Below are positions 27,320-36,969 of a stretch of 64,000 nucleotides of DNA, one piece after another; the first letter of the stretch is position 1, and every line of letters starts with the position of its first letter. The translations under genes and the position numbers were made by a program. Origin of the DNA: Acidimicrobiales bacterium (GTDB taxonomy: Bacteria; Actinomycetota; Acidimicrobiia; Acidimicrobiales; MedAcidi-G1); assembly GCA_014237715.1 (NCBI GenBank), contig JAAZZG010000003.1, forward strand, positions 62,001 through 126,000. Reading direction: 5' to 3'. The notes under the pieces are model-generated. The model saw only the letters and a program-made list of their open reading frames with translations. It was not told the origin of the DNA and made no database searches.

Positions 27320-27616
27320 GTGGGACAGGCCGAACGAGACGAGACGCTGGACGAGTACCGATCGAGCATCGACAACATCGATGCCGCTCTCATCCACCTG
27401 TTGGCCGAACGCTTCAAGGTGACCCGGAAGGTTGGCGCCCACAAGGCTGCCGTTGACATGCCGCCCGCTGATCTTGAGCGTGAAGCGTCCCAGGTGCAGC
27501 GAATGCGCGAGCTGGCCGAGTCAACTGGTCTTGATCCGGTGTTCAGCGAGAAGTTCCTGCGGTTCGTTATCGACGAGGTGATCCGTCACCACGAGAACGC
27601 CAGCAACGGGGACTAG
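27320..27616 (+). CDS. chorismate mutase (AroQ type)
   Basis: A 98-residue all-helical chorismate mutase converting chorismate to prephenate for phenylalanine and tyrosine synthesis. It shows the conserved pattern RSSIDNIDAALIHLLAERF near residue 13, the active-site RKVGAHKA near 38, and RHHENA at the end. TACGAT (27307-27312) ends 7 nt before the GTG, suggesting a leaderless transcript and supporting this start over earlier codons. It overlaps the convergent ferritin-like gene by 4 nt, the two stops sharing a CTAG. Confidence 0.88.
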   Translation: MGQAERDETLDEYRSSIDNIDAALIHLLAERFKVTRKVGAHKAAVDMPPADLEREASQVQRMRELAESTGLDPVFSEKFLRFVIDEVIRHHENASNGD

Positions 27617-28803
27617 CCCTCAGCCATCTCCCGGTCCTTGGACACCTCGTCAAGGTCGGCGAACTCTTCGCTGGTGTCGACCCAGTTCTCGAACTCGATT
27701 ACCCCGATGTCGGTGAACCGGTCGCGCAACCATCCGTCGCCGGCATCCAGAAGCCCCAACTTCTTGCAGTTGGGGACGATCTTGGAGAACAACATCTTCT
27801 GGAACAGTCGCAGCTCATCGGGCATCTCGAGGCTGAACTTGACCATGTCCTTGACGGGTACGCCCATGCGTTCCCAGACCTCCTGGCGCATGAACCGGTC
27901 CCGCATGCGCAGCGCCGCCTCGAAGGTGAACTCCTGTCGGTCGCGCAACTCGGCCACCGTGAGCTCCTGGTAGACCTCCTGGAGGCTAAGTACTCCGAAG
28001 GCCACGTGCCGGGCCTCGTCGGACATCACGTAGCGAAGCAGCTTCTTGAGTAGCGGCTCCTCGGTGGTCTGGTGCATGAATCCGAAGGCAGCTAGTGCCA
28101 GGCCCTCCACCATGATCTGCATGCCCAGGTAGGTCATGTCCCAGCGGCTGTCCTCGAGAATGTCGTCCAGCAGGGCGCCGAGGTGGGTGTTGACCGGGTA
28201 CTTGATGCCCCCGAGCTTCTGGTCGAGGTACTGGGCGAACACCTCGACGTGGCGAGCCTCGTCGACCACCTGGGTGGCCGCGTAGTACTTGGCGTCGATC
28301 CACGGAACGGTCTCGACGATCTTGGCCGTGCACAACAGGGCACCCTGCTCGCCGTGCATGAACTGGCTGAGGCTCCAGTTCATGGACTCCACACCCACCT
28401 CGAGCCACTCGTCCTCGTTGAGCTTGTGGAGCGGTGAATCGGGATTGTCGGCAAAGTAGGCCACCTCGGCGGGGTCGGCCGGAGCCAGCACGGCGTAAGG
28501 ATCAACGTCGATCGACCAGTCCAGGTCGGTCTGACCGTTCCACTGGGAGGTTTTGGCCTTCTCGTAGAGCTTGTCGAGGGCGGCCCGCTCTCCCTTGTCG
28601 TAGCGCCACGTGAAGATGGCGTCAGAGTTGTCCTCGACCACGCTGATCAGCGAATTGACGTCGTCGTTACTGCGGGAGAAGTCGGTGATCCGGTCCGGGT
28701 CGTTGGCATACGCCCGAAAGTCGAATGCCGCGTCGCTGATGTTCTCCGTGTCCATCTCAGTCATGGCTGCGGCTTCGGGAGAGGGGTTCTCGGTGGTGGT
28801 CAT
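27613..28803 (-). CDS. ferritin-like diiron protein, copy 1
   Basis: A 396-residue protein with a four-helix diiron core. Likely iron ligands are in SQFMHGEQGALL, QVVDEARHVEVFAQYL near residue 185, VEGLALAAFG near 228 and VMSDEARHVAFG near 255; the two EARH motifs are the signature pairs. It is closely related along its length to the neighbouring upstream gene, and the shared C-terminal FSKIVPNCKKLGLLD is striking. The exact reaction is unknown to me; related diiron proteins act as oxygenases or desaturase-like enzymes. AGGAG lies 6 nt before the ATG. It is part of the TetR-paralog operon. Confidence 0.85.
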   Translation of the reverse strand: MTTTENPSPEAAAMTEMDTENISDAAFDFRAYANDPDRITDFSRSNDDVNSLISVVEDNSDAIFTWRYDKGERAALDKLYEKAKTSQWNGQTDLDWSIDVDPYAVLAPADPAEVAYFADNPDSPLHKLNEDEWLEVGVESMNWSLSQFMHGEQGALLCTAKIVETVPWIDAKYYAATQVVDEARHVEVFAQYLDQKLGGIKYPVNTHLGALLDDILEDSRWDMTYLGMQIMVEGLALAAFGFMHQTTEEPLLKKLLRYVMSDEARHVAFGVLSLQEVYQELTVAELRDRQEFTFEAALRMRDRFMRQEVWERMGVPVKDMVKFSLEMPDELRLFQKMLFSKIVPNCKKLGLLDAGDGWLRDRFTDIGVIEFENWVDTSEEFADLDEVSKDREMAEG

Positions 28804-28842
28804 GGTTACTCCTGCTTTCTGGTGCGGGCTGTCTGGGACCGG

Positions 28843-30042
28843 TCAGTGGGTTGGGGTGTCGATGACCTCGACGCCCTGCAGGGCATCCGGGTCGAATGAG
28901 GCTCGGTTGGCGGCGTCGTCGAGTTCCCGGTCGGCTACCGGTCCGTCGAGGTCGAGAGCTTCGGCGGTGTTCTCCCAGTCCTCGAATTGGATGATGTTCA
29001 TCTCCTGGAAGCGCTCGCGCAGCCAGCCGTCCCGATGGTCGAGCAGGCCCAGCTTCTTGCAGTTGGGGACGATCTTGGAGAACAGCAGCTGCTGGAACTT
29101 CTGTTGGGAGTTCTGGTCGGGCAGCAGGGCCTCGATCTCCTCGTTGGAGATGCCGTAGCTGGGCCACAACTCGGCGTTCAGTGTGCGACGCCGCATCTGG
29201 TTGCAGGCCTCGAAGGCAAATTCCTGACGGAGCCGGAAATCGTCGGCCGAGAGGTCGGCGTAGATCTCCTGCAACGAGAGGATCCCGAAGGCCACGTGGC
29301 GGGCCTCGTCGGACATCACGTAGCGCAGAAGATTCTTGAGTAGGGGCTCCTGGGTGGTGCCCAGCATCATGCCGAAGGCGGCTAGGGCCAGGCCTTCGAT
29401 CACCACCTGCATGCCGAGGTAGACGAGGTCCCATCGTTCATCGCTCAGCACCGAGTCCAGCAGCGACTTCAGGTTTTCGTTGATCGGGTAGGAGGTGGGC
29501 ATCTTCTCGTCGAGATACCGGGCGAACGCCTCAACGTGGCGGGCCTCGTCGACCACCTGGGTGGAGCCGTAGTACTTGGCCTCGATCCACGGGACCGATT
29601 CGACGAGACGGGCCGTGCAGAGCAGGGCGCCCTGCTCCCCGTGCAGGAACTGGCTGAGCGACGCGCACTGGGAGTTGACCGCGAAGTCGACCCACTGGTC
29701 GTCGTTCCATGAGGCGACGGGGGAGCCCTTGACGTCGAGAAGGCTGCGGGCCGGGAACCCGGCCGGAATTCCGGTGGCTTCGGCCTGGAGGCGGACCATC
29801 CTCTCCGGGTCGACGTCGATCGACCAGTCCAGGTCGTCGCTGACGTTCCACTGGGACCGCTTGGCCTTTTCGTAGAGGCGGTTGAGGCCGTCCCGGCCGC
29901 GTTCGTAGTCCCATGTGAACTGGGTGTCGAACTCGGCCCGGACCTTGTCGATGAGCTGATCGAAAGCGGTAGCGCCGTCGGAAGGTTCCTCAACTGGGGA
30001 CCTGTCACTCGAGGTAGTGGCATCGCCCTGGATGATCGTCAT
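28843..30042 (-). CDS. ferritin-like diiron protein, copy 2
   Basis: A 399-residue paralog of the next gene, sharing the diiron motifs HGEQGALLCTARLVES, VVDEARHVEAFARYLDE and YVMSDEARHVAFGILSLQE, and the C-terminal FSKIVPNCKKLGLLD. The N-terminal 30 residues differ. The ATG at 30042 overlaps the TetR stop as ATGA, so the two are translationally coupled. Tandem arrangement suggests duplication, and possibly a heterodimer or two substrate specificities (inference). Confidence 0.85.
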   Translation of the reverse strand: MTIIQGDATTSSDRSPVEEPSDGATAFDQLIDKVRAEFDTQFTWDYERGRDGLNRLYEKAKRSQWNVSDDLDWSIDVDPERMVRLQAEATGIPAGFPARSLLDVKGSPVASWNDDQWVDFAVNSQCASLSQFLHGEQGALLCTARLVESVPWIEAKYYGSTQVVDEARHVEAFARYLDEKMPTSYPINENLKSLLDSVLSDERWDLVYLGMQVVIEGLALAAFGMMLGTTQEPLLKNLLRYVMSDEARHVAFGILSLQEIYADLSADDFRLRQEFAFEACNQMRRRTLNAELWPSYGISNEEIEALLPDQNSQQKFQQLLFSKIVPNCKKLGLLDHRDGWLRERFQEMNIIQFEDWENTAEALDLDGPVADRELDDAANRASFDPDALQGVEVIDTPTH

Positions 30043-31709: not shown

Positions 31710-32294
31710 TCAGGGGCGGGTGGCCGCCAAATCGGCGGCGAGAGCGGCCCGCTGGGCCTCGGTGAGGTCAACCGTCAATTCGAGCGCCGCAAAGTCGCTG
31801 CCCAACCGAACCGGTCCGCTCTCGAGCGAGAAGCTCAGGTACTGCACCGCGGACAGTCGGCCACGACCCACCTGGGTCGGGTCGAACTCGGCGTAGACGC
31901 GAGAGCCATCGGCGGTCTCGGCATACAGGCACTCCTGGAGGCCCAGCCAGGCTTCGAGTAGCGGCCGGCGTTCGGCCTCGTCCTCGATCTCAATGAGCAG
32001 GGCGCACCCCAGCTGGCCGGGGCCGCCGAGCATCCCGTTGTAGGTCTCGAGTTCCTCGTGGATGCTGGTCTCGCGCACGATCCGTTCGGCTCGCATGATC
32101 TCGTGGACCTGGTAGCGCATCGTGTCGTGGTTCTCGAACAGGAACGTGAGGTGTTCGCCGAGGTGGATCCGGCGAACCGCCTTGACGGGCATCACCTGGG
32201 CGCGGACGGCATCCCGATCGTCGGCGTAGGTCTGCCAGTCGAGGATCTCGTCACGCCGGACATGGTGGGGGGCTGGGGCCGGGCTGTCCGTCAT
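31710..32294 (-). CDS. DUF3501 family protein
   Basis: A 194-residue protein matching the DUF3501 pattern: HVRRDEILDWQTYADDRD at the start, RIHLGEHLTFLFENHDTMR near residue 43, and RIVRETSIHEELETYNGM near 70. Function unknown. It overlaps the Fe-S CCG protein gene as ATGA and follows rubrerythrin upstream; the same three families are known to be neighbours in other bacteria, suggesting a shared oxidative-stress or peroxide role (inference). Confidence 0.85.
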   Translation of the reverse strand: MTDSPAPAPHHVRRDEILDWQTYADDRDAVRAQVMPVKAVRRIHLGEHLTFLFENHDTMRYQVHEIMRAERIVRETSIHEELETYNGMLGGPGQLGCALLIEIEDEAERRPLLEAWLGLQECLYAETADGSRVYAEFDPTQVGRGRLSAVQYLSFSLESGPVRLGSDFAALELTVDLTEAQRAALAADLAATRP

Positions 32295-33667
32295 GGCGCG
32301 CCTGTCTCGTCGGTAACTGGTTCCGCGGGTGGAGCCACGGGCGTGGGGAATCCGTCCGGCTCATAGGCCCGGGCCAGGACCGACATCGGGTGCATGGGTC
32401 GCTTTCCTGCGTGTTGGCTGAACTGGAGGGCGGCCAGCGGGCAGTCGGTGGCCCAGACCTCGGCATCCGGTGCAGCGAGCCCGTCGAAGGCCTTCTTTCC
32501 GATCCGGACCGAGGCTTCGAAACCCTCCACCTTCATGGCGTACGTACCGTCGTGGCCGCAGCACTCCATGGTCGTGGACGGTTTCACGCCCGGGATCTTC
32601 CGGAGCAGGTCCCGACCCTTGAAGCCCACGGCCTGGGTTCGGAGGTGGCACGGGGCGTGGTAGGCGACGCTGCCCGGTGTCGAGGCGAACCGGTCGTCGA
32701 AACGGTCCTCGTCGCGGATCGACCATAGGAACTCCGATGGGTCCGACACCGCGTCGGCCAGCCGTTGGGCCCGTTCCCGGTCCTCGGGGGCCACCAGTTC
32801 GGGGTACTCGCGGCGAAGCATCATCGAACACGTCGGATTGATGGCCAGGACCTTCTTGCCGGCGTCGACGTGTGGCCCGAGCCGGTCGAGGTTCGTGGTG
32901 GCCCGTTCCCGAAGGGTGTCGAGATCGCCCGACTCCCAGGCAGGCATGCCGCAGCAGGCCAGGCCTTTCTCACATGTCAGGTCCACGCTGTTGCGTTCCA
33001 GCACAGCGACCGTGTCGTGCCCGACCTCGGGTTCGTTGTGCTCCACGTAACAGGTCGGGAAGAGGACGGCTTCGCCTTCGGTCGGATCGTCGCTGACGAG
33101 GCCGCGTCGAGTGGCCCAGGCGGTGAAGGTGGTTCGGGCGAAGCGGGGGAGGTCCTTGTCGCGGTGGACGCCCAGCACCTTCTCCAGGAAGATCCGGTGG
33201 ATCCGACTGCGTGTGTTGGCCACGTTGGCCAGACCACCTGATGCACGGGCAAGGGTCGCCGTCCGGTCCGGATCGCCCAGCACCCGGTCCCGTAGCCCGA
33301 GCCCCTCGGCTCTGGCACGTTGGGCCTTGTAGCGATGGACCAGCTTGGGGAAGTCCAACTGGAATTCGTGGCCGTCGCGCACCGTGTACGGGCACTGCAC
33401 CTCGCAGAGCTTGCACTGGAAGCACTGATCCATGACTTGGGCCGTCTCGGCATCGGTGACGGCCCGAACGTCGCCGTCGTGCCGGTCGTCCAGAAACGAG
33501 AACAGCGACGGAAACGAGTCGCAGTACTTGAAGCACATCCGGCATCCGTGGCAGATCTCGAACGTCCGATCGACCTCGCCCTGCAACGCATCAGCGTCCC
33601 AGTACAGGGGGTCGGAGGGGTCGTAGGTCAGCCCTGTAGTGGGGGCGTATGGAATGTGGTCGGCCAC
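32291..33667 (-). CDS. GlpC-like Fe-S oxidoreductase with CCG domains
   Basis: A 458-residue cytoplasmic protein. Two 4Fe-4S motifs are near the N-terminus ([11 protein letters not shown] and [13 protein letters not shown]). CCG-domain cysteines appear as [13 protein letters not shown] near residue 240 and HAPCHLRTQ followed by [12 protein letters not shown] near 345-380, as in GlpC, HdrD and related electron-transfer subunits. It probably passes electrons between a quinone or flavin partner and the rubrerythrin encoded upstream. The GTG start has AGGAAG 8 nt before it. It overlaps DUF3501 by ATGA. Confidence 0.88.
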
Positions 33668-33788: not shown

Positions 33789-34205
33789 TCAGCTGACTCC
33801 GTCGAGCAGCGACTGGAAGCGACCGGCGTGGGCCTTCTCGGCCTTGGCGAGGGTCTCGAACCAGTCGGCGATGTCGCCGTGTCCCTCTTCGCGGGCCGTC
33901 TTGGCCATGCCGGGGTACATCTCGGTGTACTCGTGGGTCTCGCCGGCCACCGCGGCGGCCAGGTTCTCCATGGTGTCGCCGATGGGCAGGCCGGTGGCTG
34001 GATCGCCGACGACCTTGATGTAGTCGAGGTGGCCGTGGGCGTGTCCGGTCTCGCCTTCCGCCGTGTCGCGGAAGTTGCCGGCGATGTCGGGATAGCCCTC
34101 GATGTCGGCCACCTTGGCGAAGTAGAGGTAGCGGCGGTTGGCCTGAGACTCGCCGGCGAAGGCGGCCTTCAGGTTCTCGAGCGTCTGGCTGCCGTCAAGG
34201 CTCAC
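33789..34205 (-). CDS. rubrerythrin-type diiron protein
   Basis: A 138-residue rubrerythrin without the C-terminal rubredoxin domain. Diiron ligands lie in [17 protein letters not shown] near residue 17, [18 protein letters not shown] near 46, [13 protein letters not shown] near 87 and [12 protein letters not shown] near 122. Rubrerythrins reduce hydrogen peroxide; lacking rubredoxin, this one needs an external electron donor, plausibly the neighbouring CCG Fe-S protein. GTG start with AGGAG 7 nt upstream. Confidence 0.9.
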
Positions 34206-34360: not shown

Positions 34361-34630
34361 CTACTCCTGGTCGTAGCGGGGAACGTCCGGCCCGACGTGG
34401 GCTGTGAACAGGTCGAGTATCTCGCCGGGTTCGGCGTGACGGCCCGTCTCGGCCTTCGAGTAGATGATGGTGTCGTCGACGACCACGTCGAACACCGCGT
34501 TCTCACCGGTCACGAGAACCAGATCGTCGACGACGTTTTGGTAGGTGGCCAGCAGGTCTCCAGCCGCGCCCACGGCGCGGGAGGAATAATCTCAGGGGAC
34601 GCAGTAGGTGATTCGGATGCGGTGGCTCAT
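34361..34630 (-). CDS. SelW/Rdx-family selenoprotein (in-frame UGA)
   Basis: An 89-residue protein if the TGA at codon 13 (34592-34594) is read as selenocysteine. The N-terminus then reads MSHRIRITYCVPUDYSSRA, placing Sec exactly in the CxxC redox motif of SelW/SelT/SelH proteins. After the TGA the frame stays open for 76 codons and matches the family: VFDVVVDDTIIYSK, then TGRHAEPGEILDLF. The only other reading, starting inside the gene, would lose the redox motif. A perfect 7-bp hairpin with loop GUG begins 11 nt after the TGA. The ATG overlaps the stop of the lipid-kinase gene (ATGA). Thioredoxin-fold, probably a thiol oxidoreductase; its physiological partner is unknown. Confidence 0.85.
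34564..34580 (-). promoter_or_regulatory. SECIS-like hairpin of the SelW-like gene
   Basis: CCGCGCC pairs perfectly with GGCGCGG around a GUG triloop; a CUC/GAG lower stem may extend it past a small bulge. The loop starts 18 nt after the TGA and begins with G, as bacterial SECIS elements usually do (a loop guanine about 16-37 nt downstream of UGA). Confidence 0.65.
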
Positions 34631-35664
34631 GACTCGGACCCTAGGCGCGGATGCCGGAAGCGAGCCGGAGCGCGGCCGGGGGGATGGCAGTCGGCTCCTG
34701 CCACCAGCAGGGAACCGGGACGCACCGTGACGGTGAGAGGAAGCCGGGTGAACGGTTCACCATCGGCTCGAACGGTCGGGTCAGCGGTGTCCGTCTCGAG
34801 GTGCACCTCGGAGGCCCGGTGGATCGTGACGTCGGAATGGTCGAGGTGGGCGCCTGTTCGGACCTTTGGGAAAGCCCGGAGGAGGGCCAGGCGACCCACG
34901 TCACCCACCAGGCACACGTCCAGCAGGCCATCGTCGGGACTGGCATCGGGACAGATCCGCATCCCACCCCCGAACAGCCCCAGGTTGGCCACCACCACGA
35001 CGGCTGCCCGTTGATCGAGAACCACCCCATCATCAGGACCACCGGAAAAGGTGAGCCGGAACCTGCCCGGTTGCATTCCTGGAATAGCACCCAACGTGGC
35101 CAATGTGTAGCGCGATGGGCCTCGCGGAAACCCCATCGCCTCGGCCCGGGCGTTGACGAGTGCGGGAAAGCCGGCGATGCAGCTCGTGACGGCATAGAGC
35201 GGGTCGGATCTCCCGGCGTCCCGACCGGAACGACAGGCCAGCAGGTCGACGGGGATGGGATCAGCGAGCGCACGATCCACTCGGGCGTCGAGGTCCTGTT
35301 TGCTCGGGCCTCCGATCAGACCCAGGGACTCGGCGGCGTCGTTGCCCGTGCCGGCGGCCACGATGCCTACCACGGTGGGCGATCCGGCAGCCGCGTTGGC
35401 TGCCATGTGGACGATTCCGTCGCCCCCGACCACGACCAGCCTCGGGATGCCGGTCGCCACGGCATGGTGGGCGGCGGTCAGAGCCTCGTCAGCAGACGCG
35501 GAGTCCAGGACCAGCGGCTCAATTCCCCGGAACCTGAGGCGTTCAAGCACCCGGGCCATGTCGGCGGCGGCCCGACCCCGCCGGGCCGCGGGATTGGCCA
35601 GGAGGGCGACCTGGGAACCCTTGCGCGGGATGGAAGAACTCAACATCGGCCCATCATCGCCCAT
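34627..35664 (-). CDS. diacylglycerol kinase-like lipid kinase family protein
   Basis: A 345-residue protein of the YegS/DagK/LCB family. It shows VALLANPAARRGRA at the start, the nucleotide motif VVVGGDGIVHMAANA near residue 80, and VGIVAAGTGNDAAESLGL near 100, where GGDG and GTGND are the family signatures. It would phosphorylate a lipid such as diacylglycerol with ATP. The ATG at 35664 has GGAGG 6 nt upstream; longer readings would run into the divergent cupredoxin gene. It is translationally coupled to the selenoprotein gene by ATGA. Confidence 0.87.
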   Translation of the reverse strand: MGDDGPMLSSSIPRKGSQVALLANPAARRGRAAADMARVLERLRFRGIEPLVLDSASADEALTAAHHAVATGIPRLVVVGGDGIVHMAANAAAGSPTVVGIVAAGTGNDAAESLGLIGGPSKQDLDARVDRALADPIPVDLLACRSGRDAGRSDPLYAVTSCIAGFPALVNARAEAMGFPRGPSRYTLATLGAIPGMQPGRFRLTFSGGPDDGVVLDQRAAVVVVANLGLFGGGMRICPDASPDDGLLDVCLVGDVGRLALLRAFPKVRTGAHLDHSDVTIHRASEVHLETDTADPTVRADGEPFTRLPLTVTVRPGSLLVAGADCHPPGRAPARFRHPRLGSES

Positions 35665-35680
35665 CGGTAGCCTCCGGCCT

Positions 35681-36121
35681 ATGGATTCATCTCGCGAATC
35701 GAGCAGTGCGCGTTCTCTGACCCGTATCGCGCCGGCTACCGGCCGATTGGCGGCTGGCATGCTGGTGGCCGGCTTTTTGAGTACCTGCCTTCTGGCTTCG
35801 GGCTGCGGTGGAGGCGATGACGGCTCCACCGCTGACAAGTCGGCTGACGGCGTTCTTCGAGTGGTTGGGCTCGACACGCAGGACTTCCATGCCGACAGTT
35901 ACATGGCCACCGCTGGCGAGGTCACCGTTGAGTTCTCGCTGGCCGGCTTCCAGGCGCACACGCTGGTCATCGAGGGCCGTGAGGGCGAGTTGCGTCTCGT
36001 CGTAGAGAACGGTGGCACGGACACCGGGACCATCACGCTGGAGCCGGGCCGCTACATCCTCTACTGCGACATCGCCGGCCACCGCCAGAGCGGGATGGAA
36101 GCCCGCTTGCTCGTGGAGTAA
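35681..36121 (+). CDS. cupredoxin-like lipoprotein
   Basis: A 146-residue exported protein. A positively charged start leads to a hydrophobic segment ending LLASGCGGG, a lipobox-like site, so it is probably a lipoprotein. The mature domain carries a type 1 copper site: His in FQAHTLVIEG, and C-x4-H-x4-M in YCDIAGHRQSGM at the end, as in plastocyanin. It may carry electrons or bind copper at the cell surface. TAGCCT (35668-35673) ends 7 nt before the ATG. Only 16 bp separate it from the divergent lipid-kinase start. Confidence 0.8.
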   Translation: MDSSRESSSARSLTRIAPATGRLAAGMLVAGFLSTCLLASGCGGGDDGSTADKSADGVLRVVGLDTQDFHADSYMATAGEVTVEFSLAGFQAHTLVIEGREGELRLVVENGGTDTGTITLEPGRYILYCDIAGHRQSGMEARLLVE

Positions 36122-36216: not shown

Positions 36217-36969
36217 TCAGGCGAGGATCTCGAAGAGCAGGTAAAGGAGGACGGTGATGGCCAGGCCGTACTTGATCGTGTCCTGATGCTTGTCGAGCAC
36301 GATCTTGTTGATCGCGCTGTCGTAGCCGCCGATCTTGCCGACGGCTGAGAGTTCCATCACGATCCAGATCACTGCGAAGACGATCCAGATGACGATGCGG
36401 GCACCGGAGTCCACCGCCAGAGAGTTCGTGACATCTCCGAAGTGCGGAGCGAAGTGGCTCGGGAACATCATGAAGAAGATGAGCGGAATTGAGAACAGCG
36501 TGTTGACCCGGCTTGCCCGACCGGCTCGCTTGGCCGCTGCTGGCGCAGCGGGGTCGGCCTCGCCGCCCTCGGAGACGGCCACCGATGAACCGATGGCGAT
36601 CTGCTGAGCTGGCCAGATGACCATCCACACGTTGGCGGCCATGGTCGTGCCGAGCAGGAAGCCGAACGAGATCCCCATGCCGGCGGCCGAGCGGAAGTAG
36701 TCGCCGCGGACCTCCTGGGCGATCAGGATCCAGATGCCCGAGAGCCAGGTGCCGAGCGCTGCCCAGCGGAACCACCACAGGGTGCGCCACGTGATCTTGC
36801 GGAGCGCCTCGCCGCGTGCGGCATCGCCCATCTCGGCGAAGGCTGAACCCTGGATGAAGTTGAAAAAGTAGAGCAGGCCGATCCAGGTGATGCCGGCCAA
36901 ATAGTGGGCATACCGACCGAGGGCCTGACCGCCTCCGGTCATTCCCATGAAGTCACTGAACAATTCCAC
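36217..36969 (-). CDS. PuuD/DUF989-like integral membrane protein
   Basis: A 250-residue membrane protein with about six hydrophobic helices. The features YAHYLAGITWIGLLYFFNF, TWRTLWWFRWAALGTW, NVWMVIWPAQQ and FMMFPSHFAPHF match the membrane domain of PuuD (urate hydroxylase family). Canonical PuuD has a C-terminal cytochrome c domain that is absent here. The conserved His and Trp residues could bind heme, but that is inference. Function in this organism is uncertain. Confidence 0.72.
   Translation of the reverse strand: MELFSDFMGMTGGGQALGRYAHYLAGITWIGLLYFFNFIQGSAFAEMGDAARGEALRKITWRTLWWFRWAALGTWLSGIWILIAQEVRGDYFRSAAGMGISFGFLLGTTMAANVWMVIWPAQQIAIGSSVAVSEGGEADPAAPAAAKRAGRASRVNTLFSIPLIFFMMFPSHFAPHFGDVTNSLAVDSGARIVIWIVFAVIWIVMELSAVGKIGGYDSAINKIVLDKHQDTIKYGLAITVLLYLLFEILA

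Follow-up and report, generated by a model that had tools for sequence, protein, structure and literature searches.

A SelW/Rdx-family gene with a predicted selenocysteine codon, and its peroxide-enzyme neighbours, in an Acidimicrobiales bacterium

The minus strand of the 64,000-nucleotide stretch of Acidimicrobiales DNA analysed here (the window) almost certainly carries a genuine selenoprotein gene of the SelW/Rdx family, selW, complete with a hairpin behind its selenocysteine (Sec) codon. The frame opens with the ATG at 34630, reads through a TGA as codon 13, continues for 76 open codons and closes with the TAG at 34363-34361 (Table 1). Its product begins MSHRIRITYCVPUDYSS... and has its redox motif, C10-V-P-U13, near the N-terminus. 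A mechanical listing of open reading frames starts the gene at GTG 34573 and returns 70 aa from which the redox motif is missing, and an earlier, first-pass annotation of the sequence was thus right that an inner start loses the redox centre. In short, ordinary annotation would truncate this redox gene. The gene adds another member to the already known SelW-like selenoproteins; what is new here is the peroxide enzyme encoded downstream of it, a neighbour on which the first-pass annotation was silent.

Table 1. Features in and around selW, numbered from the first nucleotide of the window.
Feature	Position	Strand	Remarks
selW, SelW/Rdx-family selenoprotein gene	34361..34630	(-)	89 residues with TGA = Sec
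CxxU motif codons TGC GTC CCC TGA	34592..34603	(-)	TGA 34594-34592 = predicted Sec codon
SECIS-like hairpin CCGCGCC-GUG-GGCGCGG	34564..34580	(-)	11 nt after TGA; codon conservation and covariation
DAGK/YegS-type lipid kinase gene	34627..35877	(-)	Pfam YegS_C, DAGK_cat; upstream of selW
Rubrerythrin, without rubredoxin domain match	33789..34205	(-)	Pfam Rubrerythrin 4.8e-29
Fe-S protein, CCG (HdrD/GlpC-type) domains	32291..33667	(-)	Pfam CCG, Fer4_8, Fer4_17; follows rubrerythrin, conserved with rubrerythrin
DUF3501 protein, end of conserved block	31710..32294	(-)	Pfam DUF3501 4.9e-46

The product matches Pfam Rdx (PF10262) with 59.1 bits (E 5.1e-16; cut-off 22.6) and TIGR02174 with 35.9 bits (cut-off 34.2), and the first of these matches, along with the frame itself, bears out the claim that an in-frame TGA occupies the Sec site of a SelW CxxU motif. 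The best NCBIfam match is NF041051 (SelTWH_Campy), a SelT/SelW/SelH family (seleno)protein model, at 63.2 bits over residues 5-74, yet the product falls outside this narrower equivalog group because its score is under the model's cut-off of 88 bits. A structure model built from a 39-row alignment (pLDDT 90.7) predicts the thioredoxin-like fold of SelW-related proteins, and its top 21 matches in the PDB (E up to 5.1e-5) are bacterial SelW-related or hypothetical family proteins. The modelled fold is shared with 2fa8 from Agrobacterium (TM 0.83, 27% identity) and with 3dex, SAV_2001 of Streptomyces avermitilis (TM 0.79, 35% identity), both of which carry Cys where the window protein has Sec. Mouse SelW (2npb), which has a CxxU site as well, adopts the same fold (TM 0.67), although its sequence match is not significant (E 0.59).

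A contig scan with the single SelW protein gave only two relatives, and a broader genome search was used instead. This search found a SelW match in 43 of 48 genomes of the bacterium's own taxonomic family (below, the family), 42 of them with an inner TGA. Codons were counted in 41 extracted family sequences, which omit a fragment near a contig end (G040) and a copy with ambiguous bases (G007); the latter, read separately, has TGA at the Sec site and a CxxU motif. In every one of the 41, Cys fills the first position of the motif and TGA the Sec site; close relatives keep the TGA and do not show the change of codon that the first-pass annotation had named as fatal to its proposal. The frameshifted G034 sequence entered the codon and hairpin counts, though neither the protein alignment nor the tree, and of the identical pair G036/G037 the protein alignment has a single copy. 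This G034 copy (L072) is split near residue 59, by either an assembly error or real decay.

The draft state of the assembly and the frameshifted copy in G034 could both suggest that sequencing introduced the TGA in error, or that selW is decaying and has acquired a nonsense mutation. Such a reading is vanishingly improbable because 41 sequences, drawn from many species, share the TGA at the same codon; the protein is also conserved on either side of the Sec codon in the family alignment, and its codons follow a purifying pattern. Very improbable, too, is the view that translation really stops at the UGA and that the cell makes the 70-aa product of the mechanical listing, which begins at GTG 34573 and is devoid of a redox motif. 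Codons -6 to -3 ahead of the TGA (I/T/Y/C) are nearly fixed in the family, the putative GTG start is itself the hairpin loop and is GTT in one relative, and the genome holds a complete Sec machinery. Beyond the family, SelW matches occur in 111 of 397 genomes of the order, and all 112 matches hold at least one TGA, with two of them additionally holding TAA or TAG. Loci outside the family were extracted by HMM, and in the 50 from the order the second position of the motif is TGA. Across the phylum, a SelW match turns up in 54 of 396 genomes; the 15 matches without an inner stop, in 14 genomes, all lie outside Acidimicrobiia, and the nine of these that were examined are all CxxC.

The source genome is a 2.33-Mb draft of 75 contigs with 92.6% completeness. 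A search for selA, selB, selC and selD, on which the first-pass annotation had let its proposal stand or fall, located all four: selA (C22:241028, 396.6 bits), selB (C22:242306, 268.4 bits), tRNA-Sec (C22:227315, 67.5 bits; anticodon tca by ARAGORN) and selD (C11:80011, 352 bits), the last with an in-frame TGA of its own in HGAGUGCK. A lineage-wide reassignment of UGA to an amino acid, with no selenium involved, would also leave the frame simply open. Given these four genes, however, it has a close to negligible probability, and the upstream kinase stops at TGA, as does selW itself in 12 of 40 family members free of a frameshift; one gene therefore employs TGA in both meanings. Among 31 genomes searched, selA is present in 25; the 31 include 12 order genomes from outside the family, in which a SelW match was found in none of the six without selA and two of the six with it. 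The selD gene (L080, C11:79000-82500) is itself a predicted selenoprotein gene, whose TGA is followed by two predicted hairpins, the second being GGCGCAC-GUC-GUGCGCC.

The hairpin with a GUG loop that had been noted shortly after the selW TGA is indeed present, conserved and covarying. Its loop lies 18 nt past the UGA, and the element shows the features looked for in a bacterial SECIS, a stem-loop just past the UGA with a G in a small apical loop. Eukaryotic SECIS elements sit in the 3' UTR. Less of the original description carries over to the relatives, most of which have a CGUGA loop on a 5-6 bp stem, unlike the 3-nt GUG loop in the window, and single-sequence folding of three stretches was not significant against shuffles (z -0.56, -1.78 and +0.52). 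The case for the hairpin is therefore comparative, as the window sequence by itself has an unexceptional fold energy. Across 36 distinct family sequences, standard pairs make up 92.1% of pair cells against a shuffled mean of 85.5%, and the stem covariation score is 0.302 against 0.171, a value that none of 500 shuffles reached; both the pair fraction and the score drop when the partner is shifted by 1-3 columns. Pairs with double changes (3) and further pair types (6) show no excess over shuffles, column pair 17-29 of the stem fails in 10 of the 36 sequences, and two of its six pairs are invariant. Because the paired columns double as codon positions in genes that are related, inheritance may account for some of the covariation.

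Codon choice in the family is most uniform over the same element. Among 44 scored positions, the lowest codon entropy is found at codons +6, +7 and +8, which are Ala GCC (41/41), Val GTG (40/41) and Ser AGC (30/30), unlike the other Val and Gly codons of selW, which vary across the family. By these comparative measures, the hairpin after the TGA is evidently constrained as RNA, and it offers a clear example of RNA structure fixing synonymous codons. Outside the family (85 loci, with L102, L148, L152, L162 and L163 removed from the comparison as duplicates), one of two hairpin sequences accompanies 74 of 76 Sec loci and none of nine Cys loci; GCCGUGnGC was found in 48 Sec loci and the GUCGGUCUG type in 26. 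The formate dehydrogenase mRNA of E. coli has a GGUCU loop, of which the GUCGGUCUG type is reminiscent. The two loop types after the SelW Sec codon differ by family (L110-L122 and L124-L129, among others, versus L004-L033). An Rfam scan of the window gave no match at gathering score, and a window scan for further genes with a TGA and a hairpin of the pattern GC[CA]GT[GC][AGC]GC, which other hairpin types would escape, returned selW only.

The coupling of selW to a lipid-kinase gene, also proposed at first pass, holds as gene order and less so as overlap. The kinase lies upstream in all 41 family loci compared, and its reading frame in the window ends at 34627, overlapping the selW ATG as ATGA; only G000, G036 and G037 show this overlap, the other loci having 1-57 nt between the end of the kinase frame and the chosen start of selW. 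Further upstream, a membrane protein (36217-36969, minus strand) has a match to a portion of the N-terminal domain of urate oxidase, and a gene for such a urate-oxidase-like membrane protein precedes the kinase in many family loci.

A better functional clue than the kinase is the downstream neighbour. The next identified gene downstream of selW encodes a peroxide enzyme in 42 of 42 family loci, with rubrerythrin in 33, the catalase-peroxidase KatG in eight and AhpC in one. The intervening gap is mostly 77-180 nt, reaching 263 nt in G028 and 569 nt in G030, and given such distances selW and the peroxide-enzyme gene may be on separate transcripts. In G042, G030 and G047 the contig ends after the start of katG.

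There is about an even chance that these peroxide neighbours owe their place to an inherited order of genes or to a hot spot of recombination, and not to a function shared with the SelW selenoprotein. The kinase is, after all, equally constant, and the peroxide link stops at the family border, outside which neighbours differ; in 60 loci outside the family with about 3 kb of flank (fewer at contig ends), no rubrerythrin, kinase, CCG or DUF3501 match was found at 1e-3. In the SelW tree, seven of the eight KatG-linked proteins, from three genera, fall alongside rubrerythrin-linked SelW in one weakly supported group of 17 rows, and the 42 cases are for that reason not independent. This group is mainly of genus g1 yet contains the KatG-linked SelW of G030 (g6) and of G020 and G023 (g5), and it may be that few events sufficed to spread a SelW-KatG cassette; the KatG-linked SelW of G021 groups with its own genus. 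Many independent exchanges of rubrerythrin for KatG are unsupported by the tree. On the other hand, the enzymes that occupy the slot come from three unrelated families and share one substrate. The nine genomes (78-96% complete) with KatG or AhpC in that position gave no rubrerythrin match at any locus, whereas both of two comparison genomes did, and KatG, found in eight of 48 family genomes, is downstream of selW each time.

The gene, its Sec codon, the Sec machinery, the conserved hairpin and the synteny can be read from the sequence, and Sec insertion and a redox reaction of SelW are predicted from it. The ribosome would decode the UGA at 34594-34592 as Sec by means of tRNA-Sec(UCA), SelB and the stem-loop 11 nt on, and the resulting 89-residue protein, with its thioredoxin-like fold and Cys-x-x-Sec centre, would perform thiol/selenol redox chemistry. 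SelW might then help to defend the cell against peroxide, as a partner that reduces, repairs or senses, a role suggested by the constancy of the downstream neighbour and judged to fall a little short of an even chance. Rubrerythrin, KatG and AhpC use different reductants, and SelW is therefore more likely to serve as a partner under a shared stress, in reduction, repair or sensing, than to supply electrons to one particular enzyme. A fuller proposal, tentative and rather doubtful as a whole, makes SelW a dedicated selenol partner of peroxide removal, with a slot that takes whichever peroxide enzyme the genome keeps and a double-Sec form in a related genus. Were the slot filled in this manner, SelW would serve the common stress and not one enzyme.

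The first-pass annotation considered a SelW-like selenoprotein in an actinobacterium notable. Although the gene is real, this claim is weaker than stated, as SelW-like proteins are described in excerpts of two marine metagenome studies as the most abundant marine bacterial selenoprotein family (PMC1088965, PMC2398784), and a table excerpt lists them in Symbiobacterium, then filed under Actinobacteria (PMC1794560). The excerpted Sargasso survey terms the function of SelW-like proteins unclear (PMC1088965). As far as these excerpts go, the marine proteins are like the window protein in belonging to the Rdx family and in having CxxU and a hairpin with a G in a small apical loop past the UGA; they differ in that the window selW comes with a genome, a lineage and a gene neighbourhood, and Actinobacteria are unnamed in the excerpts (PMC1088965, PMC2398784). 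In open-licence PMC text, no report was found of selenoproteins from this lineage, sought under Acidimicrobiia, Microtrichales and marine Actinobacteria, or of a SelW selenoprotein together with rubrerythrin or catalase-peroxidase. The marine SelW-like family can here be tied to a genome, to a host lineage and to a partner slot that stays constant, and its function becomes testable, for instance through peroxide sensitivity or through redox exchange with any of the three enzymes rubrerythrin, KatG and AhpC.

Genus g41, from another family (f36) of the same order, has TGA at both motif positions (YUVPU) in 12 of 15 matched SelW genes (L132-L135, L137, L142 and L172-L177, in 12 genomes), and CxxU is retained in three further members of this genus. 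The UxxU proteins form one tree group (support 98/43), and in 97% of 200 bootstrap trees one change accounts for them. All 12 UxxU genes are followed, 23-44 nt downstream, by the start of a gene from a single cluster, whose representative is a cytochrome P450; selA is present in 11 of the 12 genomes and was not found in G336. SelW of this related genus is possibly a diselenide form, set beside a cytochrome P450. Review tables, as excerpted, give UxxU in other families and the SelW family as CxxU (PMC9312934, PMC13188914). Elsewhere in the window (27613-30033, minus strand), two tandem paralogue-like genes have weak matches to AurF, a di-iron N-oxygenase, just below the Pfam cut-off.
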